This document shows, piece by piece, positions 5,143-53,842 of a stretch of DNA of 64,000 nucleotides. A program made the translations under genes and the position numbers. The notes under the pieces were generated by a model. It saw only the letters and a program-made list of their open reading frames with translations. It searched no databases and was not told the origin of the DNA. Within the stretch, counting starts at the first letter, position 1, and every line of letters starts with the position of its first letter. The DNA is from Ureibacillus manganicus DSM 26584 (GTDB lineage Bacteria > Bacillota > Bacilli > Bacillales_A > Planococcaceae), in contig NZ_JPVN01000003.1 in the NCBI RefSeq assembly GCF_000772945.1, positions 62,001-126,000 on the forward strand. The letters are read 5' to 3'.

Positions 5143-5822
5143 GTAGGGTCTTCATCGTGTTGATGAAGACCTTTTAATATGGGGATTGATCTAGAAAGGG
5201 TCATCATAGGGTTGATGAAGACCTTTTGAAAGGGAAATCAGCCCAGAAAAGGTCTTCATAAGGTCGATGAAGGACATTTGGCAGGTGAATCAGCGCGGAA
5301 AAGGTCATCATAGAGGTGATGAAGACCTTTTGATAAGGGAATAGATCCAGAAAAGGTCATCATAGAGGGGATGAAGACCTTTTGATAAGGGAATTGCCCC
5401 AGAAAAGGTCATCATAAGGGTGATGAAGACTTTTTGATAAGTGAATTGCCCCAGAAAAGGTCATCATAAGGGGGATGAAGACCTTTTGATAAGGGAATTG
5501 CCCCAGAAAAGGTCATCATAAGGGTGATGAAGACTTTTTGATAAGTGAATTGCCAAAGAAAAGGTCATCATAAGGGGGATGAAGACCTTTTGATAAGGGA
5601 ATTGCCCCAGAAAAGGTCATCATAAGGGTGATGAAGACTTTTTGATAAGTGAATTGCCAAAGAAAAGGTCATCATAAGGGGGATGAAGACCTTTTGATAA
5701 GGGAATTGCCCCAGAAAAGGTCATCATAAGGGTGATGAAGACTTTTTGATAAGTGAATTGCCAAAGAAAAGGTCGTCATAGAATAGATGAACGATAATTG
5801 AAAGGTGAATCAATGCGTAATG
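5143..5822 (+). repeat. 52-bp tandem hairpin array, family A (copy 1, 13 units)
   Basis: The intergenic space between two convergent genes is filled by 13 units whose GGTC landmarks fall at 5147, 5199, 5251, 5303, 5355, 5407, 5459, 5511, 5563, 5615, 5667, 5719 and 5771, exactly 52 bases apart each time. Each unit has the hairpin AAAAGGTCwTCAT, a loop such as AAGGGTG, and ATGAAGACCTTTT, then a spacer of about 19 bases with GATAAGGGAATTGCCCC. From 5401 onward two unit types alternate, giving a 104-bp higher-order repeat. The last unit is degenerate. No coding signal is seen. Confidence 0.95.
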
Positions 5823-5824
5823 CC

Positions 5825-5864
5825 AAAAAAAACGACCCAAGCGAGTAAAAGCGCCTGAGTCGTG
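5825..5864 (-). terminator. intrinsic terminator of yhzD
   Basis: On the minus strand ACGACTCAGGCG and CGCTTGGGTCGT form the stem, followed by eight T residues. It lies directly after the yhzD stop codon. Confidence 0.85.
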
Positions 5865-5868
5865 ATTT

Positions 5869-6054
5869 TTATACATGAAATAATAATAACTTACCTGACG
5901 AATTCACTAAACGATGAGTTTTTGCTGCTATCCCTTTTTCTTCAATACGTTTCTGACCTTCTACTTTAGCAACCTCGTCACTTTCAAAAGTCCAGACTTC
6001 ATCAAATAATGTCTCACCAGATTTTTCAAAAGCAGTAAAACGATAATTTCCCAT
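5869..6054 (-). CDS. yhzD: YhzD-like small protein
   Basis: This 61-residue protein begins MGNYRFTAFEKSGETLFDE and ends THRLVNSSGKLLLFHV. It resembles the uncharacterised YhzD family of Bacillales, which I recall next to yhaM, as here. It is acidic, soluble and has no recognisable catalytic motif; the function is unknown. The ATG at 6054 is preceded by AGTGGGGATTGGG. An in-frame TTG at 6078 would add eight residues but has no site. It converges with repeat array A1 and is divergent from yhaM. Confidence 0.75.
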   Translation of the reverse strand: MGNYRFTAFEKSGETLFDEVWTFESDEVAKVEGQKRIEEKGIAAKTHRLVNSSGKLLLFHV

Positions 6055-6365
6055 CCCAATCCCCACTTTCAATAACAAATCTCAATTAAGAAAAATAACA
6101 TTATATTAATAAAAATCTTACATCAAATAGAAAAAAATGTGAATAGCATAAAATATATAATTTATATGAACTCATTAGAGTGTACATCTTTTTAGATATA
6201 CTGGGCATCTACGGCAATCATAAAGGCATCACTACAGTTAAAGTTATATTACTCTAAAAGATTATAACTCATTTATTCCCATCGAAACTAACCGTAACAA
6301 ATGATACAATATTGATTGAATGCAAGATTAATGTAAACATAAACTAATTGAAAGGGAGTGATTTC
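6055..6365. other. divergent intergenic region yhzD/yhaM
   Basis: About 310 bases of AT-rich DNA. It should hold promoters for both genes; a GATACAAT -10-like box occurs near 6303, about 60 bases before yhaM. No repeat, RNA gene or other reading frame is recognised. Confidence 0.4.
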
Positions 6366-7301
6366 TTGGAAGGAATTACAAAGCTCCAGGCTGGGGAACA
6401 AGTAGACCAATATTTATTAATTAAACAAGCGACAAAAGGTGTTACAACTGTAGGAAAACCCTTTATGTCATTAGTTTTGCAAGATAAGAGCGGAGATATT
6501 GAAGCAAAATTATGGGATACAAATGAAGAACATGAGCAAATGTATAAGGCCGAGACAATTGTTCGTGTTGGTGGAGAAATTCATGACTACCGTGGAAAAA
6601 ATCAACTTCGTATAAAGCAAATTCGAGTAGCTAAACAGGAAGAAGGAATAAGTATAAATGAACTAGTTCCTTCATCATCCACACCAAAAGAACAATTATT
6701 TGATGAACTAACTCAGTTTTTCTTTGAAATCAAAAATCCGAATATCTCTAGAATTACACGTCATATTATTAAAATACATCAACCTGAAATTTTAGTTTTC
6801 CCTGCAGCAACTAAAAATCATCATGATTATGCGTCTGGATTGCTAGATCATGTAGTTTCCATGTTACGTTTAGGAAAAGCTATTTGTGATTTATATCCAA
6901 CATTAAACAGAGATTTAATATATGCTGGAATTATTTTACATGATATCGGGAAAGTGAAAGAACTTTCGGGTCCTGTAGCAACTACATATACAGTTGAGGG
7001 GAATTTGTTAGGTCATATTTCAATCATGGTAGACGAAATTGGACAGGCAGCTAAAGAATTAGAAATTGATGGAGAAGAGGTAACACTTTTAAAACATATT
7101 GTGTTATCCCATCATGGAAAAGAAGAATGGGGTAGTCCAAAAAAACCTATGATTCAAGAAGCAGAGATTTTACACTACATTGATAATATTGATGCTAAAA
7201 TGAATATGCTTTCTAGAGCATTAGGTAAAACAAAACCAGGTGAGTTTACTGAAAGACTATTTGCATTAGATAATCGCGCCTTTTATAAGCCAACAATATA
7301 A
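6366..7301 (+). CDS. yhaM: 3'-5' exoribonuclease YhaM
   Basis: The 311-residue protein matches YhaM (314 residues in B. subtilis), a metal-dependent 3'-5' exoribonuclease that trims short RNA and single-stranded DNA ends. The N-terminal part (about 10-90) is an OB-fold of the type seen in RecJ/DnaE, including GDIEAKLWD. The C-terminal part is an HD domain with [13 protein letters not shown] and the metal-binding ILHDIGK (His192-Asp193). I chose the TTG at 6366, because AAAGGGAGTG lies five bases before it; the in-frame TTG at 6348 overlaps that site. The gene is monocistronic and is followed by a terminator. Confidence 0.92.
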
Positions 7302-7304
7302 TAT

Positions 7305-7339
7305 AAAAAGAGATGGAGGTTGTTTCCATCTCTTTTTTG
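7305..7339. terminator. bidirectional terminator between yhaM and serC
   Basis: AAAAGAGATGGA, a GGTTGTT loop and TCCATCTCTTTTTT make a symmetrical hairpin with A/T tails that can stop both convergent transcripts. Confidence 0.9.
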
Positions 7340-7352
7340 TATCTATTTTCTG

Positions 7353-8450
7353 TTATTGATGTTTCTTTTGAAATTCAACCATAAAATCAGCAAGAGCTTT
7401 ACATGCTTCAAATGGTACCGCGTTATATGTTGAAGCACGGCAACCACCCACTGAACGGTGACCGTTTAATCCTACAAAACCAGCTTCTTTAGCTTCAGCT
7501 AAAAATTGCTTTTCTAATTCTTCATCAGCAATACGGAAAGTAATGTTCATAAAAGAACGTGAATCTTCTGTTGCATGACCTTTGTAGAAACCTTTACTAT
7601 TGTCGATTACATCATAAATGAGTCCTGCTTTTTCCACGTTATTTCTTTCAATAGCAGGAACGCCACCTTGATTTTCAATCCATTTTAAAACTTCACCTAA
7701 CATGTAGATTCCAAATGTAGGAGGTGTGTTATATAAAGAATTAGCATCCGCATGTGTTGAGTATTTTAACATTGTTGGAATATTTGTATTTTCCTTTTCA
7801 AGTAAATCTTTACGAATAATCACTACTGTTACTCCAGATGGTCCAAGATTCTTTTGAGCACCTGCATAGATTAAAGCGAATTTGCTAATATCAACAGCTT
7901 TTGAAAAGATATCACTAGACATATCAACGATTAGAGGAACATCACCAGTATCGGGGAAATCTCTCCAAGCCGTACCGTAAATTGTATTATTAGATGTCAA
8001 ATGTACATAAGCATCATCAGAATCAAATTTAATTTCGTTTGAAGTTGGAATGTTACGATATTGATTTTCTTTTGAGCTAGCAGAGATCACTGGTTCGCCA
8101 AATAGTTTTGCTTCTTTTAAAGCCTTTTCAGACCAAACGCCAGTTAATATGTAACTAGCTTTTTTACCTTCTTGTAAAAAATTCATAGGAACCATTGTAA
8201 ATTGAAGGCTGGCTCCACCTTGTAAAAATAGTACCTCGTAGTTCTCAGGAATAGCGTAAAGCTTTTTCAAACGAGCAATCGCTTCGTTATGAACAGCTTC
8301 ATAATCTTTACTCCGGTGACTCATTTCCATAATAGACATGCCTGTTCCGTTAAAATTAACTAATTCTTTTTGAGCCTTTTCAAGAACTTCTAGTGGTAAT
8401 GCAGATGGTCCTGCATTGAAATTATAAGCACGGTTATTTGTTGTACCCAT
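7353..8450 (-). CDS. serC: phosphoserine aminotransferase SerC
   Basis: The 365-residue enzyme converts 3-phosphohydroxypyruvate and glutamate to phosphoserine with pyridoxal phosphate, the second step of serine synthesis; it also serves pyridoxal 5-phosphate synthesis in organisms using the DXP-dependent route. It begins with the family signature YNFNAGPSALP and carries MSHRSKDY, the phosphate-binding GGAS, and AGAQKNLGPSG with the Schiff-base Lys200. The ATG at 8450 has CAAGGAGTG upstream. Unlike serA, no T-box motif is seen in its leader. It is a single gene, convergent with yhaM. Confidence 0.95.
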   Translation of the reverse strand: MGTTNNRAYNFNAGPSALPLEVLEKAQKELVNFNGTGMSIMEMSHRSKDYEAVHNEAIARLKKLYAIPENYEVLFLQGGASLQFTMVPMNFLQEGKKASYILTGVWSEKALKEAKLFGEPVISASSKENQYRNIPTSNEIKFDSDDAYVHLTSNNTIYGTAWRDFPDTGDVPLIVDMSSDIFSKAVDISKFALIYAGAQKNLGPSGVTVVIIRKDLLEKENTNIPTMLKYSTHADANSLYNTPPTFGIYMLGEVLKWIENQGGVPAIERNNVEKAGLIYDVIDNSKGFYKGHATEDSRSFMNITFRIADEELEKQFLAEAKEAGFVGLNGHRSVGGCRASTYNAVPFEACKALADFMVEFQKKHQ

Positions 8451-8756
8451 GTGAACACTCCTTGATTTTAGTAAATTCCTTTATGTTAATAGATAATAAA
8501 CTCTTTTTTGAAAAATGGCAAAAGTCATTTTATTTTTTTAATTACTAAAAAAGTGCCCAGAATCTTTAAACTATCAACCATTTTAGAACATTATTATAAA
8601 TAAACAAGTGGAAATGTGACAAAAATTTCATTATTAACTACAAAATAAAGCTAGTAAAGCTGTAAAAAAGCGATAAATTCCATAAATAAAGGTTTTTTAT
8701 ACAGAAATCGTTTATACTAAAATGTATTATGTTCAAAAGTATGGAGGTATTTTATT
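8451..8756. other. divergent intergenic region serC/yjdM
   Basis: About 305 bases with high AT content. TTTATACT and TATTAT boxes near 8710-8730 could belong to the yjdM promoter. No T-box motif, repeat or small gene is seen, which contrasts with the serA leader. Confidence 0.4.
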
Positions 8757-9092
8757 ATGAATTTACCAAACTGTCCGAAATGTAATTCAGAATATACTTA
8801 TGAGGATGGCTTACTATTGGTATGTCCAGAATGTGCACATGAATGGTCAGCAGATGAAAGCCAAAATGATGTAGATGAGCTAGTTGTAAAAGATGCGAAT
8901 GGAAATCTTTTAGCTGATGGAGATACGGTAACGGTTATAAAAGACCTGAAAGTTAAGGGAAGTTCTCAAGCTCTTAAACAAGGAACGAAGGTAAAAGGTA
9001 TTCGACTTGTAGACGGAGATCATAACATCGACTGTAAAATAGATGGTTTTGGTGCAATGCAACTAAAATCTGAGTTTGTTAAGAAAATATAA
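8757..9092 (+). CDS. yjdM: PhnA/YjdM-family zinc-ribbon protein
   Basis: This 111-residue protein starts with a four-cysteine zinc ribbon, [13 protein letters not shown] and CPECAHEW (residues about 7-29), followed by the small C-terminal domain typical of PhnA/YjdM, with [26 protein letters not shown]. Despite the old name, the family is not a proven phosphonate enzyme; its exact role is unclear. The ATG at 8757 follows ATGGAGGTATTTT. The gene stands alone between divergent serC and convergent prsA and is followed by a bidirectional terminator. Confidence 0.88.
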
Positions 9093-9096
9093 TGAC

Positions 9097-9137
9097 GAAA
9101 AAACGCGTAAACAAGATTTTCACTTGTTTACGCGTTA
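9097..9137. terminator. bidirectional terminator between yjdM and prsA
   Basis: AAAAAACGCGTAAACAAG and CTTGTTTACGCGTT form a 13-bp perfect stem with a seven-base loop and A- or T-rich tails on either side. Confidence 0.9.
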
Positions 9138-9141
9138 TATA

Positions 9142-10029
9142 TTATTTTTCTTCAGTAGTTTCTTCTTTTGCAGTTTCCGCTGGTAGGATATTAACTAAAG
9201 CGCCTTGTAAATCTGCGTCTTTAATATCTACATTAGCAGCACGTACTAATTCAACTAACTTTGCATTTGCTTTTTGACCAACGATAGATTGGCGAAGTTC
9301 AGCTTGTTTTTCTTCATAAGTTCCGTAACCTTCTACTTCACGTTTGTCAGTTACTTCAATAATATGATATCCAAACTCAGTTTTTACTGGTTCGCTAACT
9401 GTATTTAACTCAAGGGCATATGCCGCATCATTAAATTCTTTTACCATTTTACCAACAGAAAACCAACCAAGTTCTCCGCCGTTAGCTGCAGTTCCATCTG
9501 TACCATATTCAGCAGCTAGTGCTGCAAAATCTCCACCGTTTTTAATTTTATCGTATACTTCTTGTGCAGTTGCTTCATCTTCTACTAAGATATGTCGAGC
9601 ATTTAACTCATATTTAGCTTGTTCATATGAAGCTTTTACTTCTTCTTCTGTTACAGTTTTATCCACTTCTTCAGTTAATTTTTTGCTAAGTAAACCAAGT
9701 TTGATCTCTTTTTTATAACTATCTTCAGTGTAACCGTACATACTTAAAATCGATTCATAAGAATCTCCGTAAGTTTCTTTAAATGCATCAAATTCTTTAT
9801 TAATGTCATCTTCAGAAACTTCATAATTGTTTTCTAATACTTTTTTTACAACTACTTGTTCTAAAATTTGTGGTCCAGTTGTAGCTGATTTTAGTTCGTT
9901 GTAAAATTCATCTTTCGTTATATCACCAAAGGATGCAGAAACAACAACTTCATCTGTTGCTTCCTTATCACTGCAAGCTGCTAATAACAAAGAAGAAGCT
10001 AGTCCAATTGCTAATAATGATTTTTTCAT
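9142..10029 (-). CDS. prsA: foldase lipoprotein PrsA (peptidyl-prolyl isomerase)
   Basis: The 295-residue protein is the membrane-anchored foldase that helps exported proteins fold on the outer face of the membrane. It starts MKKSLLAIGLASSLLLAAC: a lipoprotein signal with lipobox LAAC and the lipidated Cys19. The central parvulin domain runs from ARHILVEDEATAQ through GGELGWFSVGKMV to FGYHIIEVTDKRE. The C-terminus is acidic (ETAKEETTEEK). The start at 10029 is preceded by AGAGGAG. The in-frame extension to 10134 would destroy the signal peptide and is not used. In B. subtilis ScoC represses protease and export functions, and scoC is nearby here as well. Confidence 0.95.
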   Translation of the reverse strand: MKKSLLAIGLASSLLLAACSDKEATDEVVVSASFGDITKDEFYNELKSATTGPQILEQVVVKKVLENNYEVSEDDINKEFDAFKETYGDSYESILSMYGYTEDSYKKEIKLGLLSKKLTEEVDKTVTEEEVKASYEQAKYELNARHILVEDEATAQEVYDKIKNGGDFAALAAEYGTDGTAANGGELGWFSVGKMVKEFNDAAYALELNTVSEPVKTEFGYHIIEVTDKREVEGYGTYEEKQAELRQSIVGQKANAKLVELVRAANVDIKDADLQGALVNILPAETAKEETTEEK

Positions 10030-10174
10030 GTGTATTTTTACTCCTCTAAATTCGAATTTTATGCAATAGATACTATAACATAAACGGTTAAAAAACAAAA
10101 TGGTTCCATGTTGAATGCCCAAGATTAGTGACACTCCCCCGCATAATATAGACCTAGAAAGGAGGTGTTCATGA

Positions 10175-10279
10175 ATGGGCAGTTCTTATAGCGGTGGTTA
10201 CGGTAACGGTTCAGGATTTGCGCTATTGGTTGTTTTATTCATTCTATTAATTATTGTTGGTGCAGCGTTTATGTACTAA
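10175..10279 (+). CDS. YjcZ-family small membrane protein
   Basis: This 34-residue protein is too short for usual ORF calling. It has a Gly/Tyr/Ser-rich head (MGSSYSGGYGNGSG) and one hydrophobic segment FALLVVLFILLIIVGAAF, the typical pattern of the YjcZ sporulation-associated family, which occurs in several copies in spore formers. The ATG at 10175 is seven bases after AAAGGAGGTG. A nearer ATG at 10171 is in another frame and stops after six codons. A terminator follows after 30 bases, supporting a real transcription unit. Confidence 0.85.
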   Translation: MGSSYSGGYGNGSGFALLVVLFILLIIVGAAFMY

Positions 10280-10309
10280 TCGAATAAAACAACAGGTATG
10301 CAACCTAAA

Positions 10310-10344
10310 GAAAGAGCTAAAGGCCAAAGTCTTTAGCTCTTTTA
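10310..10344. terminator. bidirectional terminator after the YjcZ-family gene
   Basis: AAAGAGCTAAAG, a GCCAAAGT loop and CTTTAGCTCTTTTA form a symmetric hairpin between two convergent genes. Confidence 0.8.
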
Positions 10345-10364
10345 CGTATAATTAAAGTATAGGA

Positions 10365-10550
10365 TTACATAGCTAATGAAACTTCAACATAAAAAGAAAC
10401 TAGTAGAATTGTTATAAGTACATTAATTGTACGGAATATTTTTGGGTGTTTTTCTTCAGGAATTTCCTTTTGCATAACAAGTGCATATGTCATGCGATTT
10501 ATTTGGAATAAATAAAATAATGAGAATAGCACTAATACTAAAATTAGCAA
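10365..10550 (-). CDS. small membrane protein of unknown function
   Basis: The 61-residue protein has two predicted membrane segments (LILVLVLFSLFYLF and INVLITILLVSFYVEVSLAM) joined by a polar hairpin with EIPEEKHPKIF. I do not recognise the family. The start is probably the TTG at 10550, because GGGGAGGA lies about six bases upstream. It is 60 bases downstream of the DUF3267-type gene on the same strand and could be co-transcribed with it. Confidence 0.6.
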   Translation of the reverse strand: MLILVLVLFSLFYLFQINRMTYALVMQKEIPEEKHPKIFRTINVLITILLVSFYVEVSLAM

Positions 10551-10610
10551 GTCTATTCCTCCCCTCTTTCACTTCATTTTAGCATATCAAAGGTTGATAA
10601 CAGTTACAAG

Positions 10611-11156
10611 TTAGAGATTACTTGGAGGTACTAAAATTTCATAACCTTTTGGAGTCTCTTCGATAACTGCATTTTTAGGAGCCGGTAAAAGGTTTTTAAC
10701 ACATAATATGTCCATTAAACAAATACTGCTATGAAAAGCTAGTAAGATTGTTGAATAATGAGTATATTCTGGGACTGAATAAGCCACAAAAATCAATAGT
10801 GAATTGATGAGTAAAAAAGGTAGTAAAAGGACGAAAATATAATAATTTTTCGGGATCAAATCTTTTAATCGAATATTAATTACTGGAATAAACGTAAAGT
10901 CAAATTTAAGTTTTAATTGTACGTTTTTTCGATATTTAAATAGGCTAATGTAATGGACTAATTTATGAATAGGGTATAGGAACAGAAGTGCAATAAAAAA
11001 CAACCAAACAAAATCATCAGTATACTGAACTGGATCTAAGTATCCAAAGCTAATATATGAGAAGGAAAATACAAGAACGAAGATGATAACCGACCAAAGA
11101 GTTAAACGTGTTGTTCCATACTCATGTTTTATGTTAAAAGTTTTCCAACAATGCAT
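10611..11156 (-). CDS. DUF3267-type membrane protein (putative zincin relative)
   Basis: The 181-residue protein has about four hydrophobic segments and a central YPIHKLVHYISLF motif. Its pattern resembles the DUF3267 family, described as putative membrane zincin peptidases with HExxH; here the motif reads HKLVH, so the catalytic Glu is replaced by Lys. It may be an inactive relative, or the motif may be used differently. I chose the ATG at 11156 because AAAGGATG precedes it by seven bases; the upstream ATG at 11177 has no site. It lies between prsA and scoC, where Bacillus carries yhaI/yhaJ/yhaK genes. Confidence 0.6.
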   Translation of the reverse strand: MHCWKTFNIKHEYGTTRLTLWSVIIFVLVFSFSYISFGYLDPVQYTDDFVWLFFIALLFLYPIHKLVHYISLFKYRKNVQLKLKFDFTFIPVINIRLKDLIPKNYYIFVLLLPFLLINSLLIFVAYSVPEYTHYSTILLAFHSSICLMDILCVKNLLPAPKNAVIEETPKGYEILVPPSNL

Positions 11157-11251
11157 GCAAAGACATCCTTTATTCATAATCGTAAAGATTATTTTAAATC
11201 AAGTGTTAAGCTTATGCTACTTTTAAAAGCGAAAAATATGTAAATAAAAAA

Positions 11252-11280: not shown

Positions 11281-11285
11281 ACTTT

Positions 11286-13059: not shown

Positions 13060-13061
13060 TT

Positions 13062-28930: not shown

Positions 28931-28962
28931 TTATAAGAAAATATGCAACAGGAGTGTGGCAA

Positions 28963-29946
28963 TTGATCGTATTAAATCAAGAACAGATTATGAGTTTTTA
29001 TAAAATAGAAGATGCTATCAAAGATGTTAAAGAAACATTAATCGCAAAAACTGTTGGAAAAGTTCAATCACCACACCGCACAGTTTTAGAATTTCCGGAA
29101 AATAGTGCGACTTCTCTATATATGCCAAGTAGTGATTTAGAAAATAATGTTGCCGCAGTTAAAGTAGTGACAATTTTTCCTGAAAACCCTGCAAAAGGAT
29201 TGCCAACTACTCAAGGAATTATAGTTTTAACGAGTACTGAAAACGGAGAACATTTATCTGTTATGAATGCATCTTATTTAACTAGACTTCGGACAGGGGC
29301 AATGACGGCATTGGCTACTGATTCCCTTGCTAAAAAGGATTCATTTATACTAACTGTTGTTGGAACAGGTGGCATGGCCTTTGAGCAGACAATAGGCATC
29401 TTAGCGGTGCGTCCTATTGAAAAAATTATACTATTTAATAGAACTGAAGAAAGAGCGCTAAGTTTTTCTAAAAAGTTAAAAGACTATGGCGTAAATGCAG
29501 CAATTGAAATTGCAAACGATGTGAATGATGCTGTGAGCAAAGCTGATATTGTTTGTTGTGCGACAAAATCTAATACACCTGTATTTAATGGTGAATATTT
29601 AAAGGCTGGTACACATGTAGTTGGGGTCGGATCGTATTTACCACATATGCACGAAATTGACGAAACTACTATTAAACGGGCTTCAAAAATTGTTGTTGAT
29701 GACCTACAAGGGGCTAAAGATGAAGCAGGTGAACTTATGGATGCGGCACAAAAAGGAATATGGTCTTTTGACGATGTTTATAGTGAATTAGAAATGTTAG
29801 TGAGTGGCAGTATTCACGGACGAGAAAATGATGAGGAGATTACGTTCTTTAAGTCGGTTGGAGCATCCTATTATGATTTAGCTGTAGCAAAGGGTGTTTA
29901 TCAAAAAGCGATTAGTGATAACTATGGGTTAAATATAGAGGTTTAA
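28963..29946 (+). CDS. ornithine cyclodeaminase/mu-crystallin family protein
   Basis: The 327-residue NAD(P)-dependent protein shows the family pattern: LYMPSSDLENNVAAVKVVTIFPENP, ASYLTRLRTGAMTALATDSLAKKDS, the Rossmann motif VVGTGGMAFEQT and VVDDLQGAKDEAGEL. Members include ornithine cyclodeaminase, alanine dehydrogenase and ketimine reductases, and the substrate cannot be set from the sequence. The TTG at 28963 follows CAGGAG by eight bases; the upstream GTG overlaps that site. With the MHS transporter it probably takes up and deaminates or reduces one amino acid or imine. Confidence 0.82.
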   Translation: MIVLNQEQIMSFYKIEDAIKDVKETLIAKTVGKVQSPHRTVLEFPENSATSLYMPSSDLENNVAAVKVVTIFPENPAKGLPTTQGIIVLTSTENGEHLSVMNASYLTRLRTGAMTALATDSLAKKDSFILTVVGTGGMAFEQTIGILAVRPIEKIILFNRTEERALSFSKKLKDYGVNAAIEIANDVNDAVSKADIVCCATKSNTPVFNGEYLKAGTHVVGVGSYLPHMHEIDETTIKRASKIVVDDLQGAKDEAGELMDAAQKGIWSFDDVYSELEMLVSGSIHGRENDEEITFFKSVGASYYDLAVAKGVYQKAISDNYGLNIEV

Positions 29947-29964
29947 TAGTAGTTGTATTCTATA

Positions 29965-30352
29965 GGGTGTATTGGTGTGGTCTATGTACCAAATCGATTC
30001 GGATTTCGTTGTGAAAGGTAACATAGGAACGTCCTATGTGCCCGAACGTGGTGGAATTAGTACTGAAAGGTAACATAGAAGCGTTCTATGTGCCCGAACG
30101 TGGTGGAATTAGTACTTGAAGGTAACATAGAAGCGCTCTATGTGCCCGAACGTGGTGGAAATAGTGCTGAAAGGTAACATAGGAGTGCTCTATGTGCCCT
30201 TAAGTGCTGGAATTAGTTCCAAAAGGTAACATAGAAGTGCTCTATGTGCCCGAACGTGGAGGAATTAGTACTGAAAGGTAGCATAGGAGTGCTCTATGTG
30301 CCCTTAAGTGGTGGAATTAGTTCCAAAAGGTAACATAGAAGCGCTCATCATT
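29965..30352 (+). repeat. 52-bp tandem hairpin array, family B (8 units)
   Basis: Units begin at 29965 (degenerate), 30017, 30069, 30121, 30173, 30225, 30277 and 30329, each exactly 52 bases apart. The hairpin is GGTAACATAGRAGYGYTCTATGTGCCC-like with arms ACATAGA/TCTATGT, followed by a spacer near GAACGTGGTGGAATTAGTACTGAAA. Changes in one arm are matched in the other (ACATAGGA/TCCTATGT in unit 30017, ACATAGAA/TTCTATGT in unit 30069). The array lies between two convergent genes. No reading frame is supported. Confidence 0.93.
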
Positions 30353-30367
30353 GCTAACAAATTAGAG

Positions 30368-30402
30368 GATCATCTTGAAAGTCGATTCTTTCAAGATGAT
30401 CC
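30368..30402. terminator. strong hairpin after array B
   Basis: GGATCATCTTGAAAG and CTTTCAAGATGATCC form a perfect 15-bp stem with a five-base loop, directly after the hmoB stop on the minus strand. T-runs are weak on both sides, so it may be a 3' stabiliser or terminator. Confidence 0.7.
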
Positions 30403-30406: not shown

Positions 30407-30919
30407 CTATTTCTTCTCGGGAACTTTCCCTGAATAAGTTGAAACATAGCTAGCTGCATTGAAAATATTTTGCTTTTGTACACCAGGTTCGAGTTGTGGT
30501 TTAGAATGTGCTTTAGTAAAGGCATTGGATTGTTTCCAATCGTCAAACGCTCGTTTGTTTTCCCATTGAGTCAACACAATATACGTTTCAGATTTAATCG
30601 GTCGTAACAAACGAAAAGCTACAAAGCCTGGCATTTTTTCAATGTCTTTCGAACGGCTTAAAAATCGCTGTTCAAATACAGGACGTCCTTCGTCAGAAAC
30701 TGGGATGTTATTAAAAACGAAAAAACCTCTTTGCTCAATTTCATGTACTGAATCAATGACTTCAAATTTACGAGGGGAAGCAAAAACGGTCTTTCGTTCG
30801 GTTTCGTGTAAAAGTACTGTATTATCAGAACCATATAAAATAAACATGTTTTCTTTTTCATATTTTTTTAATATTTTCTCCATATAATCAGGCGTCCCTG
30901 AAGTTAAGTAAATGTACAT
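30407..30919 (-). CDS. hmoB: heme-degrading monooxygenase HmoB-like (ABM domain)
   Basis: The 170-residue protein has a C-terminal antibiotic-biosynthesis-monooxygenase domain (FVAFRLLRPIKSETYIVLTQWENKRAFDDW, in pieces, residues about 100-135) with the Asn-Trp region and SNAFTKAH of IsdG-like enzymes. The N-terminal extension matches B. subtilis HmoB (YhgC, 166 residues), which opens heme to release iron. It is divergent from hemE, as in B. subtilis. The ATG at 30919 is seven bases after GGGGGAA; the longer frame to 30985 is rejected. Confidence 0.85.
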   Translation of the reverse strand: MYIYLTSGTPDYMEKILKKYEKENMFILYGSDNTVLLHETERKTVFASPRKFEVIDSVHEIEQRGFFVFNNIPVSDEGRPVFEQRFLSRSKDIEKMPGFVAFRLLRPIKSETYIVLTQWENKRAFDDWKQSNAFTKAHSKPQLEPGVQKQNIFNAASYVSTYSGKVPEKK

Positions 30920-31179
30920 AGAATAATTCCCCCTCATATCCATACTGTTAGTTTCATTTAATGCAAATGTGTGGTTTATTGTCAAAGAAAGTGATTGGAA
31001 AAGTCATAAGAGAAGAACAAATTTATGACAAATGTCAGATTAAACTATACAATATTATAGGAAAAGTTTATATTGGAAAACGGATAGCATTAGTAAAGTT
31101 TATTTATTTAGAATTAATACTAGGTCAAAAGTAACGAAAATGAAACTATCGAAAAATTTGAGGGGCAGGTTCTAATTGA

Positions 31180-44970: not shown

Positions 44971-45187
44971 CATTTCGGGTAGATTTCGAGGATGGAATGT
45001 CAGTGAGCAGTCTTATGAATGACATTTCGATTGGATTATTAACTACAAATGTCGTTCATCCTCCCTATGAACGCCATTTCGATCTGAATACTAATTAGAA
45101 ATGTCGTTCATCCTCCCTATGAACGCCATTTCGATCTGAATACTAATTAGAAATGTTGTTCTTCTCTCTTATGAAAGAAATTTTGGG
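44971..45187 (-). repeat. 52-bp tandem hairpin array, family C (about 4 units)
   Basis: CATTTCG landmarks are at 44971, 45023, 45075 and 45127, with a decayed one at 45179; ATGT landmarks are at 44997, 45049, 45101 and 45153. All are 52 bases apart. The hairpin AAATGTCGTTCAT, CCTCCCT, ATGAACGCCATTT joins unit ends. Read on the minus strand its core TTCAT-AGGGAGG-ATGAA matches family A (TTCAT-AAGGGTG-ATGAA), so C looks like an inverted relative of A with different outer arms. The flanking 45190-45318 holds no gene that I can see. Confidence 0.85.
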
Positions 45188-45330
45188 CAAGTTTTGAGTT
45201 TCCTATGAATGAATAGAACCACCAATAGTTTATTCACCGGTTCTGTTTCTATTTTTTTCTAACTTTTAGTAAAAAACCTTTACATAGAATGGTAAAATAA
45301 TAGTATTAACTTTCAAAGGTGGTATGGTGG

Positions 45331-47313: not shown

Positions 47314-47369
47314 TGTTATTTTAATAGATTCTTTGTACATTAGAAATTATATCGAAAGAGAGCTTATTT

Positions 47370-48008
47370 ATGTCGTTTATTCAAGGATTGATAGACTTTA
47401 TTCTGCATATTGATGAACACCTTGTTGAGATTATTCAACAATTTGGCGGATGGGCTTATGGAATTATTTTTTCCATTGTCTTTGTAGAAACTGGAGTCGT
47501 CATCATGCCGTTTCTTCCTGGAGATTCGCTACTTTTTGCAAGTGGAGCACTTGCTGCATTAGGTGCCTTTAGTTTACCGGTTTTACTTGTAGGCTTTATC
47601 GTAGCAGCAATTCTCGGGGACACAGTTAATTACCATATTGGTAAAAAAGTAGGTACAGCAATAAAACCAAATACGTTGATTGGTCGTTTTATCAATGAAG
47701 AAAAAATGATGGCTGCCCAAAAGTTTTTCAATAAACATGGTGGTAAAACAATTGTTATTGCCAGGTTCATGCCATTTATAAGAACGTTTATACCTTTCGT
47801 TGCTGGTGCAAGTAGGATGAACTATAAATACTTTATTGTTTATAACGTTGTTGGTGGAGTATTATGGGTGTTGATTTGTACTTTAGCAGGGTACTTCTTT
47901 GGAAATATCCCAATTATTAAAGAGAATTTCTCAATAGTTGTTTTATTAATTATTTTCATTTCAGTTTTACCAGTCATTTTCAGTGCATTTCGCACTCGAA
48001 AAAAATAG
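47370..48008 (+). CDS. DedA-family membrane protein
   Basis: The 212-residue protein has about five membrane segments and DedA motifs: [60 protein letters not shown] and [10 protein letters not shown]. Some DedA proteins recycle undecaprenyl phosphate or flip phospholipids. AAAGAGAGCTTATTT precedes the ATG. The stop overlaps by one base a possible GTG of the next small frame. Confidence 0.9.
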
Positions 48009-48019
48009 TGAATTTAAAA

Positions 48020-48172
48020 ATGAACACAAGATGTTTGAATGCAACAGAAGTTCCTGCATGCAATGAAGTGCAATGTGGATGGGCTGCAAACCAAAGCTTA
48101 GAAGGTGCACAAGAGTTAGCAAAAGAATTGCTAGCAAAGTGCGATGAATGGTCGATTGTATTTCAAGATTAA
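48020..48172 (+). CDS. possible small Cys-containing protein (50 residues)
   Basis: This short frame encodes [20 protein letters not shown] and continues [20 protein letters not shown] to [10 protein letters not shown]. It has four Cys (5, 14, 19, 41) and a balanced composition that looks protein-like. It is directly downstream of dedA (in-frame GTG at 48008 overlaps the dedA stop) and directly upstream of a strong terminator. There is no clear ribosome binding site at the ATG, so translation may be coupled to dedA. I do not recognise it. Confidence 0.5.
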
Positions 48173-48185
48173 AATGAAGGAACTG

Positions 48186-48217
48186 GCACTTCGCTACTTT
48201 GCGAAGTGCTTTTTTTT
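48186..48217 (+). terminator. intrinsic terminator after dedA and the small frame
   Basis: GCACTTCGC, TACTTT and GCGAAGTGC followed by eight T residues form a strong terminator. Confidence 0.92.
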
Positions 48218-48270
48218 ATGGCCATTGGCAAACTATATTTGAGGTAATTTTTCATTAAACTGCGCGATAA

Positions 48271-49180
48271 GGTTTTCATAAGTGCGATCAAGACAATTTG
48301 CTCCAGGAAATCTGCTCGAAAAGGTCTTGATAAGGGTGATGAAGACCTTTTGTGCTAGGAAGTTCATTCAAAAAGGTCCTCATAAGTGCGATGAAGACCT
48401 TTTGTGCCAAGAAATCGGCACGAAAAGGTCATCATAAAGATGATGAAGACCTTTTGTGTTAGGAAATCTGCTCGAAATGGTCATCATGAGGGTGATGAAG
48501 ACCTTTTGTGTTAGGAAATTTGCTCGAAAAGGTCTTGAAAAGGGTGATGAAGACCGTTTGCGCTAGGAAATCTGCTCGAAAAGGTCTTCATATGAGTGAT
48601 GAAGACCTTTTGCGCTAGAAATTCCATTCGAAAAGGTCTTGATAAGAGTGATGAAGACCGTTTGCTCCAAGAAATCGATTCAAAAAGGTCATCATAAGAG
48701 CAATGTGACCTTTTGCTCCAAGAAATCGATTCAAAAAGGTCATCATAAGTGCGATGAAGACCTTTTGCGCTAAGAAATTCCATTCGAAAAGGTCTTGATA
48801 AGAGTGATGAAGACCGTTTGCTCCAAGAAATCGATTCAAAAAGGTCATCATAAGGGTGATGAAGACCTTTTTCGCTAGGAAATCCATTCGAAAAGGTCTT
48901 CATAAGGGTAATGAAGACCTTTTGCGCCAAGAAATCGATTCGAAAAGGTCATCATAAGGGTGATGAAGACCTTTTGCGCCAAGAAATCGATTCAAAAAGG
49001 TCATCATAAGGGTGATGAAGACCTTTTGCACCAGGAAATCGATTCAAAAAGGTCATCATAAGAGCAATGAGACCTTTTGCGCCAAGAAATCGATTCAAAA
49101 AGGTCATCATAAGTGCGATGAAGACCTTTTGCGCCAAGAAATCCATTCGAAAAGGTTTTCATAAGCGCAATGTAATTTCA
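48271..49180 (+). repeat. 52-bp tandem hairpin array, family A (copy 2, 18 units)
   Basis: GGT landmarks are at 48271, 48323, 48375, 48427, 48479, 48531, 48583, 48635, 48687, 48738, 48791, 48843, 48895, 48947, 48999, 49051, 49102 and 49154: 52 bases apart except for single-base shifts. The hairpin arms (AAAGGTCwTCAT and ATGAAGACCTTTT) equal those of the array at 5.1-5.8 kb, but the spacer differs (GCGCCAAGAAATCGATTCA type). The orientation is the same. Minus-strand reading frames through it exist only because of the repeat. The following 49180-49500 holds nothing that I recognise. Confidence 0.95.
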
Positions 49181-49512
49181 AGGTCAACAACAAGTACATA
49201 ATTCAACGCATTTAAAACATGAGCACAATGTATACGATGTTATCCTTCAGTTCAAAAATAATAGTAGTACTCAATAATTACACACCCTTTTTCCCAAAAT
49301 ATGTTTCGATGTGTAGTGAATTGAATCTGCATAAAAATATTATTTCCACAAAAACATCTTCTCATGAATAAATTCAGTGTAAATAGAAAAAATAAGTTAA
49401 CAGAACACCCTACTATGCCACTGTTAAGAAAAGATTGCTCCTTTAGATTAAAGTGATTGTTAAAAGTTTTTGACTACTTTTTGACAGAATCTTTAAAGAT
49501 ATGTGAACTGAG

Positions 49513-49556
49513 GGAAAACGTTTACAAAAAGGATCTTAATTCTCTTATAATGGTTT
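49513..49556 (+). promoter_or_regulatory. promoter of the cytochrome c551 gene with a cre-like site
   Basis: GGAAAACGTTTACA (49513-49526) matches 13 of 14 positions of the cre consensus TGWAANCGNTNWCA. It overlaps a TTTACA/TTACAA -35 box; TATAAT follows at about 49546. CcpA binding here would repress the gene in rich carbon supply. Confidence 0.6.
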
Positions 49557-49589
49557 AGTAGTAAAATTATTCTATCGGAGGGAAAATGT

Positions 49590-50033
49590 ATGAAAAAGGC
49601 ATTACTTGCTTTAATTTTTGGTTCAGTTCTAGTCTTAGCTGCATGTGGTAGTGGCGGAGAAAAAACAACTGATGAAACAACAGATGACAATGTTGCTAAT
49701 AACCAAGGTGCAACAGATAATACTGGTAACAATAACGGTGGTACAGCTGGTGACACAACAAACAATAACAATGACACAACAACAGATACTGAAACTGCAG
49801 ATGAAGGTGCAGTAGCTCATGGTGAACAAGTTGTTCAAAAAGCTTGTATTTCATGTCACGGTGCTAATTTAGAGGGAATGGGTAACTTCCCTGCATTAAA
49901 TAATGTTGGCTCAAGACTTTCTCAAGAAGAAATTCTAAATGTTATAAATAACGGTAAGGGCGGAATGCCTGGAGGAATTGTTAAAGGTGAAGATGCAGAC
50001 GCTGCTGCTGCATATTTAGCAACACTTAAATAA
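49590..50033 (+). CDS. cccB: membrane-anchored cytochrome c551 (lipoprotein)
   Basis: The 147-residue protein has a lipoprotein signal MKKALLALIFGSVLVLAAC (Cys19), a long low-complexity Asn/Thr/Asp/Gly linker (residues about 25-72) and a small class I cytochrome c domain with heme site CISCH (Cys86, Cys89, His90) and likely axial Met126 in GGMPGG. It carries electrons outside the membrane to a terminal oxidase. It resembles B. subtilis CccB. GGAGGGAAAATGT precedes the ATG. Confidence 0.92.
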   Translation: MKKALLALIFGSVLVLAACGSGGEKTTDETTDDNVANNQGATDNTGNNNGGTAGDTTNNNNDTTTDTETADEGAVAHGEQVVQKACISCHGANLEGMGNFPALNNVGSRLSQEEILNVINNGKGGMPGGIVKGEDADAAAAYLATLK

Positions 50034-50044
50034 TTCATAGCTGT

Positions 50045-50086
50045 GGACTAATTAGAGAGGTAACTTTCTAATTAGTCCCTTTTTAA
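50045..50086 (+). terminator. intrinsic terminator of the cytochrome gene
   Basis: GGACTAATTAGA and TCTAATTAGTCC form a 12-bp stem with a ten-base loop, followed by CTTTTTAATTTTT. Confidence 0.88.
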
Positions 50087-50188
50087 TTTTTGAGAAGTTT
50101 GAAAATGTCAAAACACAATTGATTTCATTTCTCTCATAACATGCTAAAATAAGTACAGTATTCTAAATAATGTAGAGGGTGTTAAAAA

Positions 50189-51127
50189 ATGATATCAGTT
50201 ACAACTAGAGATGTTATAGAAAAATTTAACTTAACATTAGTAAGTGGTAATGAAGGAATAGGTCGTTATATTACAACAAGTGATCTTTCACGCCCTGGAT
50301 TAGAAATGGCTGGTTATTTTACCCATTATCCAGCAAATCGTGTGCAACTAATCGGGAAAACGGAACTTTCTTTTTTTGATATGCTCCCTACAAATTTGAA
50401 AAAAGAACGTATGCTACGACTGTGCTCAACTGAAACACCTGCGATTATTATTTCTCGTGGTTTAGAAGTACCTGAAGAACTCATTCAAGCTTCTAATGAA
50501 AATAACGTTCCTGTTCTTTTAACGACAATGAAAACAACGAGATTCTCTAGTAGATTAACTAACTTCTTAGAAAGTAGGCTTGCTCCTTACGTTGCTATGC
50601 ATGGAGTACTTGTGGATGTCTACGGAATTGGTGTGCTAATAATCGGAAAAAGTGGTGTCGGAAAAAGTGAAACTGCTCTTGAACTTATTAAAAAAGGTCA
50701 TCGTTTAGTTGCAGATGATTGTGTTGAAATACGTCAAGAAGCTGAGGATTTACTCATTGGTAGTCCACCACCATTATTAGAACATCTGTTAGAAATTCGT
50801 GGAATTGGCATTATCGATATTATGACATTATTTGGTGCAAGTGCAGTTAGACCGCAAAAACGTATTACACTCATCGTAGAGCTTGAAAACTGGGATGGAG
50901 AAAAAGTTTACGATCGCCTTGGATTAGATGAAGAAAAAATGAAAATTATCGATACAGAAATTACAAAATTAACGATTCCTGTTCAACCTGGTCGAAACGT
51001 TTCAGTAATCATTGAAGTTGCTGCGATGAATTATCGTTTGAAAAAACTAGGTGTAAATGCAGCACAAGAATTTTCACGTCGATTAGAAGAAGTGATTTCA
51101 GTTCAAGACGAGTTAGAAGATTATTAA
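50189..51127 (+). CDS. hprK: HPr kinase/phosphorylase HprK
   Basis: The 312-residue enzyme phosphorylates and dephosphorylates HPr on Ser46 and so controls carbon catabolite repression through CcpA. The C-terminal half has the Walker [10 protein letters not shown] (about 153-161), DDCVEIR and the signature [28 protein letters not shown] precedes the ATG. It starts the hprK-lgt-ppaX-yvoF group known from Bacillus. The cre-like sites in this window fit the presence of this regulator. Confidence 0.96.
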
Positions 51128-51167
51128 CTGTTTGAGAAACTTGCTCTTTACAGAGAGGAGATAGAGG

Positions 51168-51995
51168 ATGGATTTTTTATTATTAGACATTAATCCGATT
51201 GCGTTCCATATTGGATCTATACCTGTACGGTGGTATGGGATTTTAATAGCACTAGGTATTGTCTTAGCTTACATAGTTGGTCAACATGAAGGGACAAAAC
51301 GAGGATTACCAAAGGATTTCTTTGCTGATTTACTGATTTGGGCAATTCCTATTTCAATTGCCTCAGCACGAATTTACTATGTAGCAATGGAATGGGAATA
51401 TTATGGTGCAAATCCCGGCAAGATTATTCAAATTTGGAATGGTGGAATTGCAATCCATGGGGCACTAATAGGTGCAATTATTACCGCCTATGTATTTTGC
51501 CGATATAAAGGCATTAGCTTCCTAAAAGTAGCAGATATTGCAATCCCAAGTGTATTAATTGGTCAAATCATCGGCCGCTGGGGTAACTTTATGAACCAGG
51601 AAGCTTATGGTGGACCAGTATCAGAAGAATTTTTACGCAGTTTAATGATTCCTGATTTTATTATTAATCAAATGTATATCAATGACCCAGTATATGGGTT
51701 AGCATACTTCCACCCAACGTTCTTATATGAATCAATGTGGAATGTGGTAGGACTTATTCTTTTATTAGTCCTTAGAAAAGTAAATCTTCATCGTGGTGAA
51801 ATATTCTTTACTTATTTAATTTGGTACGGAATTGGCCGATTCTTTATTGAAGGAATGAGAACAGATAGTTTGTATCTAGTAGGTGAACTGCGATCTGCTC
51901 AAGTTGTTTCTATTTTAGGAATCATTATCGGAGTTGTTTTCATTATCTATCGACGAGTAAAAGTACGACCTATAGTACGATATAAAGATAAATAG
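51168..51995 (+). CDS. lgt: prolipoprotein diacylglyceryl transferase Lgt
   Basis: The 275-residue membrane enzyme transfers diacylglycerol to the lipobox Cys of preprolipoproteins, so it should modify PrsA, the binding protein, the two lipoproteins and the cytochrome of this window. It has seven membrane segments, [27 protein letters not shown] and the signature [29 protein letters not shown] precedes the ATG. Confidence 0.96.
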
Positions 51996-52052
51996 TAGAC
52001 TAATTTCTTAGAATTGCTTCAATAGTGTTCGAGAAATGAAGGAGTAATAACT

Positions 52053-52691
52053 ATGGTAAAAGCATTATTATTCGATTTTGATGGGACTTTATTAAATACG
52101 AATGACTTGATCATTCAAACTTTTATGCATGTGTTGGAAGAAAGGTTTCCCGGGCAATATAAACCTGAAGATTGTTTGCGCTTTATGGGTCCGTCGTTAG
52201 TTGAAACCTTTAAAGAACTAACACCGGATGAAGTAGATGAAATGGTAGGTAAGTATCGAAAGTGGAATCTTGAACACCATGATGAACTTGTAACAGAGTT
52301 TGATGGAGTAATTGAAACCTTAGAAGAACTCCAGGCTTTAGGAATTCGTTTAGCGATTGTTTCGACGAAAAGACGTGACACGATAAAACGTGGATTAGAT
52401 TTAATGGGTGCAAGCCACTTTTTTGAGTTTTTAGTTGGAATCGAAGATGTGAAAAATGTGAAACCAGATCCAGAGCCTGTTTTACTTGCTATTGAAAAAC
52501 TTGGTGTGGAAAAAGAAGATGTAATAATGATTGGCGATAATCATCATGATATTTTAGCAGGTAAAAATGCAGATGTAAAAACAGCGGGAGTCGCTTGGTC
52601 GATAAAGGGTGAAGATTATTTAAAACAATTTCATCCAGATTACATTCTTCAGCACATGTCAGATTTACTACCAATCGTTAAGGAGTCCTAG
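52053..52691 (+). CDS. ppaX: pyrophosphatase PpaX
   Basis: The 212-residue HAD-family enzyme hydrolyses the pyrophosphate released when HprK dephosphorylates seryl-phosphorylated HPr. The HAD motifs are FDFDGTLLNTND (nucleophile Asp8 or nearby), VSTKRRDTIKRG, and KPDPEPVLLAIEKLG with MIGDNHHDILAGKNA. AATGAAGGAGTAATAACT precedes the ATG. Its place downstream of hprK and lgt supports this specific name. Confidence 0.93.
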   Translation: MVKALLFDFDGTLLNTNDLIIQTFMHVLEERFPGQYKPEDCLRFMGPSLVETFKELTPDEVDEMVGKYRKWNLEHHDELVTEFDGVIETLEELQALGIRLAIVSTKRRDTIKRGLDLMGASHFFEFLVGIEDVKNVKPDPEPVLLAIEKLGVEKEDVIMIGDNHHDILAGKNADVKTAGVAWSIKGEDYLKQFHPDYILQHMSDLLPIVKES

Positions 52692-52694
52692 GCT

Positions 52695-53228
52695 ATGAGA
52701 AGGACAGAGCGATATAAGGTGGAAGGATCAAACTCATTATGGCAGATATATAAAACCGTGTCCTTTTGGAAAGTTGTAAGATGCTTTGCGTTTGGTCAAA
52801 TTGGTCGTGTCACTCCTTTTATGAGCTGGAAAAACTGGATTTATCGTACGTTTTTAAGAATGAAAATCGGTCGACAAACTTCATTGGCATTAATGGTCAT
52901 GCCCGACACAATGTTCCCTGAGCGTATATCAGTCGGTGATAACACGATCATTGGGTTTAATACAACGATTTTAGCCCATGAATATTTAATTGATGAATAT
53001 CGTTTAGGAGATGTGAAGATAGGAAGTAACGTCATGATTGGAGCGAATTCTACAATCTTACCAGGCGTTGAAATTGGTGACGGTGCAATAGTTTCTGCAG
53101 CTACACTAGTACATAAAGATGTACCTGCTGGATCGATGTGCGGAGGAAATCCAATGCGTATTATTTACACGGCTGAAGAAATGGCCGAACGAAAAAAGAA
53201 TGATGTGCCTAAGTGGCATAATGCTTAA
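52695..53228 (+). CDS. yvoF: hexapeptide-repeat acyltransferase YvoF
   Basis: The 177-residue protein has left-handed beta-helix repeats, for example ISVGDNTIIGFNTTI, VKIGSNVMIGANSTI and VEIGDGAIVSAATLV, and ends with GGNPMRIIYTAEEM, as in maltose/galactoside-type acetyltransferases. The acceptor is unknown. It starts three bases after ppaX. A terminator follows, then a large repeat region before hisZ. Confidence 0.9.
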   Translation: MRRTERYKVEGSNSLWQIYKTVSFWKVVRCFAFGQIGRVTPFMSWKNWIYRTFLRMKIGRQTSLALMVMPDTMFPERISVGDNTIIGFNTTILAHEYLIDEYRLGDVKIGSNVMIGANSTILPGVEIGDGAIVSAATLVHKDVPAGSMCGGNPMRIIYTAEEMAERKKNDVPKWHNA

Positions 53229-53248
53229 TGCATTTCGCAAACTTGATG

Positions 53249-53279
53249 AAACTCACTATTTTGGTAGTGGGTTTTTTTC
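53249..53279 (+). terminator. intrinsic terminator of the hprK-yvoF group
   Basis: AACTCACTA, TTTTGG and TAGTGGGTTTTTTT form the terminator 20 bases after yvoF. Confidence 0.88.
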
Positions 53280-53345
53280 TTAATTTAGAGGAAGGTTTAG
53301 TGTGGGAAGGCTAGAGGACAAAGAAAAGGATTGTGGAGAAAAATA

Positions 53346-53640
53346 GAAAGTAACTAGGGGCTTCTATGAGACAAAAGCAGCTGAGAAAGTTGGAGAAATG
53401 TCTCGTAGAAGTACTCTACGAGACAAAAGCAGAAGAATCCAAGCCGGAAATGTCTCATAGAAGCGTTCTACGAGACAAAAGCAGCTGAGAAAGTTGGAGA
53501 AATGTCTCGTAGAAGTACTCTACGAGACAAATGCAGAAGAATCCAAGCCGGAAATGTCTAATAGAAGCGTCCTACAAGACAAAAGCGGCTGAGAAAGCTG
53601 GAGAAATGTCTCATAGAAGTGCTCCACTAGACAAAACTGG
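53346..53640 (+). repeat. 52-bp tandem hairpin array, family D (6 units)
   Basis: Units begin at 53346 (degenerate), 53398, 53450, 53502, 53554 and 53606, exactly 52 bases apart. The best unit has 11-bp perfect arms, TGTCTCGTAGA and TCTACGAGACA, around AGTAC. Two spacer types alternate (GCAGCTGAGAAAGTTGGAGA and GCAGAAGAATCCAAGCCGGA), giving a 104-bp period as in array A1. The core TAGAAGYRYTCTA is shared with family B. Confidence 0.93.
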
Positions 53641-53658
53641 GTAAGTGAGAAGGGAAAA

Positions 53659-53842
53659 GGTAACAGAGAAGCCCCATCAGTGACCGAATGAATGAAGAAA
53701 CTCATCAAAAGGTAACAGAGAAGCCTCATCAGTGACCAAATGGAGAGAAGATTCTTCTAAAAGGTAACAGAGAAGCCCCATCAGGACGAAATGAAGCGGG
53801 GAATTTATTAAAAGGTAACACAGAACCCAAATCAACCAAGAA
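53659..53842 (+). repeat. 52-bp tandem hairpin array, family E (4 units)
   Basis: GGTAACAG landmarks are at 53659, 53711, 53763 and 53814 (52, 52, 51). The unit reads GGTAACAGAGAAGCCCCATC followed by AGTGACC. The first unit lies five times 52 bases after the TGTCTCG arm of the unit at 53399, so the D and E arrays share one register although their stems differ. The head GGTAACA and the AGAAG at offset 8 are also those of family B. The hairpin is weaker here. Confidence 0.85.

Follow-up and report, generated by a model that had tools for sequence, protein, structure and literature searches.

We describe six tandem arrays with a 52-bp period in five intergenic regions of a 64-kb window of the genome of Ureibacillus manganicus DSM 26584 (contig NZ_JPVN01000003.1, positions 62,001 to 126,000; the window is the whole stretch of 64,000 nucleotides that was analysed). 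All window arrays are variants of one homologous palindromic unit. They are a real feature and part of a published, unexplained class, the 52-nt satellites of Bacillus (Subirana and Messeguer, PMC8161180), with structure beyond the published account. Satellites of exactly 52 bp and changing sequence occur by the dozen in each carrier among some Bacilli and have been a puzzle since 2020. We document the frame, spacing, covarying arms, placement and strand orientation of such arrays. We tentatively favour the interpretation that they form one superfamily of non-coding satellite DNA in which the dyads stay phased at five helical turns, a phasing that probably serves a protein. The common frame makes the puzzle testable, namely what within the unit is read, whether its length is a ruler for binding or only inherited, and how the purine-rich strand is linked to replication.

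Results

A common dyad-centred frame

Consensus rows of 94 arrays found by Tandem Repeats Finder (TRF) were collected from the window, from 60 stretches of the surrounding genome (G000 in our numbering of genomes; loci are numbered with L) and from 27 loci of other genera. Exactly 52 nt was the length of 79 rows, and the 76 of these with a dyad score of at least 4 were kept for the frame analysis (54 units from the window's own genome and 22 from other genera). Centred on the dyad, their consensus reads ggaaat....gaaaNGNNNNNNA-[7-nt loop]-TNNNNNNC-N-aaa/ttt, which can be summarised as GAAA-N-G...A-[loop]-T...C followed by a purine-rich linker. G at position -12 with C at +12 is present in 73 of the 76 units, A-5/T+5 in 70, A-16 in 69 and A-3 in 65. 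Arrays A1, A2, B, C and E of the window are included in this set; array D, excluded with a TRF consensus of 51 nt, fits the frame by eye and has the framed core and 52-bp spacings. A few rows fit poorly, such as L018, L029 and L031:4906.

The arms of the unit covary between arrays. At distances of 4-13 from the dyad they are Watson-Crick paired in 648 of 760 cells, compared with a mean of 413 and a maximum of 448 in 500 column shuffles, a control that preserves column composition, and pairing drops to 145-247 cells when the arms are slid by 1-3 columns. Queries made from B and E match the same loci in the genome, and the last dyad of D (53620) lies 52 bp from the first dyad of E (53672), so that D and E form one register. 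A preliminary description of the window had argued from the unlike stems that copying of one element does not simply account for the equal period. That argument does not hold, given the single frame of the dyad-aligned units, the cross-matches between B and E and the shared register of D and E, which together indicate that the arrays owe their equal period at least in part to inheritance of the unit.

Constant length and drifting sequence

Window arrays were measured as distances between the dyad centres of neighbouring units, which in each array were located by one core and lie in a single orientation (Table 1). The spacing of 52 bases previously counted in A1, B, C, A2, D and E was confirmed by the dyad centres, by autocorrelation of the window (shifts of 12-200, with a minimum of 75% match in 60 bp), in which only shifts of 51-53 and their multiples pass, and by TRF, which agrees with the autocorrelation except in some AT-rich rows that are short, score low and have periods of 11-21. 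The 52-bp periodicity in the window exceeds chance. The three exceptions in A2 are a 51 directly followed by a 53, which restores the register, and one uncompensated 51.

Four sequence families of equal unit length (A, B/E, C and D) are present in the window, with the stems GGTCATCAT/ATGAAGACC in the A family, GGTAACATAG/CTATGTGCCC in B/E and TGTCTCGTAG/CTACGAGACA in D. The final unit of B is truncated, and D displays a 104-bp pattern of alternating units. Higher-order periods of 104, 156 and 312 bp were observed at positions 53346-53646 and 5290-5780 of the window and at L119:6118-7610, which indicates that two or more units were duplicated together.

Across 72 arrays with 645 units, the core-to-core spacing is exactly 52 in 548 of 577 cases, 51 in 15 and 53 in 2. 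Units differ from the consensus of their array by 4.9% in the arms, 8.4% in the flank, 13.9% in the loop and 18.0% in the linker. Linkers are thus variable in sequence and nearly fixed in length; within arrays they are about 82% identical, being repeated rather than unique. Of 14 junctions between neighbouring unlike sub-arrays (the 51-bp array L059 being set aside), 9 keep a spacing of exactly 52. The other five measure 41, 50 and 105, 71 at a junction with an uncertain dyad, and 168 where the first array is of another kind. The register kept between unlike sub-arrays indicates that stems were replaced in place while the frame persisted. The rare spacings of 40, 41, 43, 83 and 83, considered as a hint of helical periodicity, were too few for use.

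Occurrence in the genome and in other Bacilli

Searches of the window's genome returned 45 matches with an A1 query, 34 with B and 75 with D/E. In 400 kb chosen before looking, seven tandem regions score at least 80 (periods 39, 40, 51, 52, 82, 102 and 103), and arrays of the 51/52 class occupy three loci; genome-wide enrichment of the 52-bp period is supported by this sample, which is small. Many contigs of G000 begin or end inside 52-bp arrays, for example the starts of L002, L011, L016 and L032 and the ends of L027 and L031. The arrays therefore break this assembly, from which longer arrays may be absent, and 52-bp arrays account for many contig breaks in genome projects.

An exact 25-mer pattern, GTCNTTCATAAGGGTGATGAANGAC, was found in 27 stretches of an 84,980-species collection, all 27 from named genera of Bacillaceae or Planococcaceae (Neobacillus, Peribacillus, Metabacillus, Ureibacillus, Alkalihalobacillus and Bacillus), and 21 of the 27 fall within TRF arrays of 51-52 bp. 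A stem-independent pattern was also used, in which GAAANGTC-N19-GAC occurs twice with spacings of 37-67 permitted. In the order it matched 9 of 261 genomes (356 matches), all nine within the window's genus, and in the class 7 of 398, comprising the window's own genome and six from four other families; the reversed pattern, as a control, gave one match and none, respectively. Among the matches listed for the 261 genomes the spacing is 52 in 112 of 112, and among the further matches listed for the 398 genomes (own genome excluded) it is 52 in 31 of 32, the remaining one being 53, so that 143 of the 144 distinct matches listed in both sets combined are spaced exactly 52. Loops in the other families differ and are not always AAGSG. 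Occurrence is patchy, with 9 of 25 genus members positive by the strict pattern, and species counts obtained in this way are lower bounds because the pattern is strict: G024 scores 0 yet has 52-bp TRF arrays. The strict variable-gap pattern is nevertheless a simple finder of the class across families, and the window adds Planococcaceae members to it. Plasmids and phages gave no match to A1, the sole array used as a query.

Placement and strand orientation

The 39 array regions with genes on both sides comprise 17 convergent, 20 tandem and 2 divergent intervals, compared with 14, 76 and 21 among 111 intergenic regions of 200 bp or more taken at random. Convergent intervals are enriched (17/39 vs 14/111, p 1.3e-4) and divergent ones depleted (2/39 vs 21/111, p 0.04), the array loci having mostly been picked by family search and the random regions not.

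The purine-rich strand of 72 regions in G000 and G022 was assigned by GC skew to the leading strand in 57 and to the lagging strand in 6; another 6 regions lie at skew near zero and 3 are weak, which makes it the leading strand in 57 of 63 classifiable regions. Where gene direction gives no prediction, the count is 27 leading and 2 lagging. In G022 all 14 regions match their replichore, one of them at near-zero skew. Gene sense was considered as the driver of this orientation, tandem regions being sense-biased in 16 cases against 4, but the leading strand explains the data better; four tandem regions run against both. Within 42.8 kb of arrays the word GAGAAGGG occurs 20 times in sense and never in antisense, and AGCGG 80 and 21 times. 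A reading of the array words as Chi or as SpoIIIE recognition sequences (SRS) was set aside, since the loops of other families do not contain them and a purine-rich strand itself yields such skews; SpoIIIE SRS repeats appear in PMC5869595.

Turnover at orthologous sites

Both genes flanking the D/E interval, an acetyltransferase gene and hisZ, are present in 24 genus genomes. The interval holds 52-bp arrays in three of them (G000, G001 and G022), arrays of about 20.6 bp or multiples in six (G003, G004, G008, G013, G017 and G018) and no array detected by TRF in 15, counts that are non-independent, as are those at other sites, because of common descent within the genus. The site of array B was matched in 21 genomes, with 52-bp arrays in G000, G005 and G024 and a 21-bp array in G018; in G001 it is empty, the gene matches being separated by just 32 bp. 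A2 is also absent from G001, where the corresponding interval is 419 bp. At two sites, then, sister species bear either 52-bp or ~20.6-bp arrays. One might speculate, although we consider it doubtful, that both satellites are interchangeable, replication-oriented DNA platforms in five- or two-turn phase between transcription units, in which a DNA-binding system reads helical phase and dyads rather than a fixed sequence. Such platforms, if this is true, would represent a new type of chromosomal element in the Bacilli.

Other tandem repeats were also noted. Satellites of the ~20-21-bp unit (periods 20-21, 41, 82 and 103) occur in the window's genome at L023:16605-16890, L057:2667-2927, L045:13010-13238, L029:474-570 and L059:138-190. 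In G017 the yvoF-like/hisZ interval (L110:366-1427) holds repeats with periods of 61, 103, 206 and 370, built from ATATCCGCCAA-like words. TTTTTTCTAATAAC-like words are the basis of a tandem repeat at L029:5237-5864, whose periods are 124 and 227 bp, another with a 148-bp unit in 3.3 copies lies at L119:18305-18799 (G022), and Metabacillus lacus has 222- and 126-bp tandem repeats (L083:6885-7493 and L073:7765-8000) near or beside 52-bp arrays or motif matches.

Window arrays and their neighbouring genes

The window arrays are non-coding, as their period is no multiple of 3 and they lie between called genes; minus-strand open frames of 139 and 90 aa that cross A2 were judged spurious. A1 begins directly after the stop codon of its upstream gene, and B sits between convergent genes. 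The sense strand of C, defined by its loop, is the minus strand and opposes both neighbour genes. The HisZ-like gene looks like the first gene of a his operon, from reading order alone. No tRNA was found.

Table 1. Positions of the 52-bp arrays and of flanking genes in the window
Feature	Position	Strand	Units, dyad centres and spacings	Family or location
Array A1	5133..5809	+	13 units, dyad centres 5159-5783, spacings 52 in 12/12	A family
Array B	29952..30368	+	8 units, dyad centres 29978-30342, spacings 52 in 7/7	B/E family
Array C	44985..45193	-	4 units, dyad centres 45011-45167, spacings 52 in 3/3	
Array A2	48257..49192	+	18 units, dyad centres 48283-49166, spacings 52 in 14/17	A family
Array D	53346..53646	+	half unit + 5 full units, dyad centres 53412-53620, spacings 52 in 4/4	
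Array E	53647..53853	+	4 units, dyad centres 53672-53827, spacings 52, 52, 51	B/E family
Enoyl-CoA hydratase/isomerase gene (PF00378)	4319..5137	+		5' of A1
Ornithine cyclodeaminase/mu-crystallin family gene (PF02423)	28954..29946	+		5' of B
ABM-domain monooxygenase gene (PF03992)	30407..30985	-		convergent on B
Hexapeptide-repeat acetyltransferase-like protein gene (PF00132)	52695..53228	+		5' of D/E
HisZ-like protein gene (PF13393, PF21996)	53928..55118	+		3' of D/E

Discussion

Two possible explanations: phased dyads or an amplifying satellite

In the interpretation that we favour, each unit would comprise two parts: a core, quasi-palindromic and about 35 bp long (GAAA-N-G...A-[7-nt loop, often AAGSG]-T...C with an A- or T-rich flank), and a linker of about 17-19 bp whose sequence is free but whose length is not. 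Slippage or unequal exchange between neighbour units would make arrays grow and shrink and would homogenise each of them, while selection at the DNA level, acting on duplex, cruciform or single-stranded DNA hairpin, would keep the arms complementary. This selection would also hold the dyads five helical turns apart, for which a dyad-reading protein, or a protein filament occupying the array from one face, would be the simplest cause. In the gaps that separate successive transcription units the arrays would be either tolerated or of use, and they point with the replication fork. The preliminary description had also invoked selection for the constant period. Selection on length is likely, as 548 of 577 spacings are 52 despite 18% linker divergence and the variable-gap pattern returns 52 in other families; phasing by five turns is possible.

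Several points weigh against this interpretation. Homology alone could give the shared period without present selection for phase, and 51-bp arrays also occur. That the arms of different arrays within one genome are unlike would be surprising if a single protein read their sequence, and it suggests that the symmetry itself matters; the protein that would read the arrays is putative, though probable. The pairing of the arms is inflated because the dyad centre was chosen for maximal pairing, and their conservation somewhat so because the units used for divergence were picked by core similarity. Of the 94 rows, 18 were left out of the frame, 15 of them (window D included) for not being exactly 52 nt and 3 for a weak dyad. 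Likewise, 13 of 27 published consensus repeats of the 52-nt class have no significant dyad, so that not every published 52-nt family fits the frame. A weak purine excess on the leading strand is general in intergenic DNA (0.048, against 0.198 in the arrays); strand composition therefore contributes to the orientation but hardly suffices.

The strongest rival is a purely amplification-driven, selfish satellite, to which we give a real though minor chance. Copying at the fork, by slippage over hairpins of the lagging-strand template or by an unknown enzyme, would multiply 52-bp units, templated repair of imperfect palindromes would keep the arms complementary, the length would descend from one ancestral unit, and the host would gain no function. 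Much of what was found agrees with this account: one homologous frame, a purine orientation that follows replication rather than transcription, near-perfect Watson-Crick arms without wobble, 104/156/312-bp periods that betray recent block duplications, patchy occurrence in the genus and near relatives that differ in presence or absence at orthologous sites. Length speaks against it. Neutral slippage would be expected to produce more variants in length than are seen beside freely diverging linkers, and the compensated pair of 51 and 53 in A2 and the persistence of the frame and of the 52-bp spacing in several families of the class also count against it.

Selection probably on DNA rather than RNA

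Subirana and Messeguer suggested that such repeats act as RNA, and transcribed tandem hairpins could serve as small RNAs, sponges or stabilisers of 3' untranslated regions. 52-nt satellites of B. coagulans are transcribed in RNA-seq (PMC8625621). By eye, A1 and B each seem to have a stop codon on one side and a terminator-like hairpin on the other; D/E, by contrast, have a terminator-like hairpin on one side and, on the other, a sequence resembling a promoter for the following gene. Selection on a transcript hairpin should make G-T outnumber A-C in the sense strand. G-T mispairs are no more frequent than A-C, whether within arrays (134 vs 145, p 0.55) or between consensus units (12 vs 20, p 0.22, and 11 vs 21 before re-orientation), and arm covariation without a G-T excess points to selection on DNA rather than RNA. 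It fits selection on duplex, cruciform or DNA hairpin, or templated correction of palindromes, and may leave room for weak RNA roles. Orientation tracks replication and not transcription where the two can be separated (27/29), and the window has no Rfam match at the gathering score. As a general account of the arrays, a function as RNA is improbable.

That the arrays serve gene ends as insulators or as extended terminators of transcription is, in our view, about as improbable. Their enrichment between convergent genes and depletion between divergent ones would suit it, as would the AAAA-stem-TTTT of A-family units, but a T-run follows the stem directly only in A- and C-type units. In B, D, E and the units of other genera the stem is mostly followed by A or G, which means that an intrinsic terminator is not a common feature of the arrays, and separate terminator-like hairpins stand beside them by eye.

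Relation to known systems

The palindromes of bacterial interspersed mosaic elements (BIMEs) in E. coli lie outside genes at convergent ends and bind DNA gyrase. By analogy, the arrays might buffer supercoiling as landing strips for gyrase or another topology protein behind transcription units, and they resemble BIMEs as tandem palindromes in such places; gyrase is a candidate only, and the analogy seems to us a poor prospect, since the units run head to tail instead of alternating and carry no unpaired GTAG or CGTC tag. Repetitive extragenic palindromes (REPs) and BIMEs are known to bind proteins (PMC2817692). They share with the arrays an extragenic palindrome (20-40 bp in REP/BIME) in many copies, and differ in that the window arrays have an exact period and no alternating orientation. 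REPs are defined by an unpaired GTAG or CGTC tag on one side of the palindrome, TGTC being a variant of the CGTC tag (PMC3733652), whereas the conserved TGTC or GGTC of the arrays lies in the paired arm. Mobilisation by a REP-associated tyrosine transposase (RAYT, associated with the GTAG class) or IS200 was rejected: the Y1 transposase domain PF01797 has no match in the window's genome and is absent from 5 of 15 pattern-positive genomes, being present in 10 of those 15 and in 9 of 16 pattern-negative ones.

Clustered regularly interspaced short palindromic repeat (CRISPR) arrays are alike in regular spacing and in having a partly palindromic constant part and a variable part, but in our arrays the variable part is a homologous linker that recurs from unit to unit, with no unique spacers. 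The 20-21-nt Bacillus repeats of Subirana and Messeguer are likewise non-coding satellites, their period being close to a whole number of helical turns, and repeats of this kind (~20.6) take the same two intergenic sites as the 52-bp arrays of sister species.

The closest relatives are the 52-nt Bacillus repeats, so that the earlier statement that no named family with this layout was known no longer stands; the units match a described repeat family in class, though not in exact sequence. As published, these satellites are constant in size at 52 nt, variable in sequence and of a function stated as unknown; repeats of 51-53 nt in at least 4 units form several families per genome, are non-coding and are patchy among species of Firmicutes (PMC8161180). 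The window arrays agree in length class (51-53 nt), unit number (13, 8, 4, 18, 5 and 4, each at least 4), several families per genome, non-coding nature and Firmicutes host. The authors describe short conserved words in each species, the reverse of which is often present within the repeat as well, report no sequence conservation between species, and propose a role for a nucleoid protein or small RNA. Here, by comparison, several genera and, by pattern, several families have one dyad-centred frame. Papers from an open literature search, accessible in part, included none recognised as describing a common frame of 52-nt repeats. A dyad is significant (shuffle p < 0.05) in 14 of the 27 published 52-nt consensus repeats, and 9 of these 14 have G-12/C+12. 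Replication orientation, junction register and the reuse of intergenic sites, which do not appear in the text of PMC8161180, are described here.

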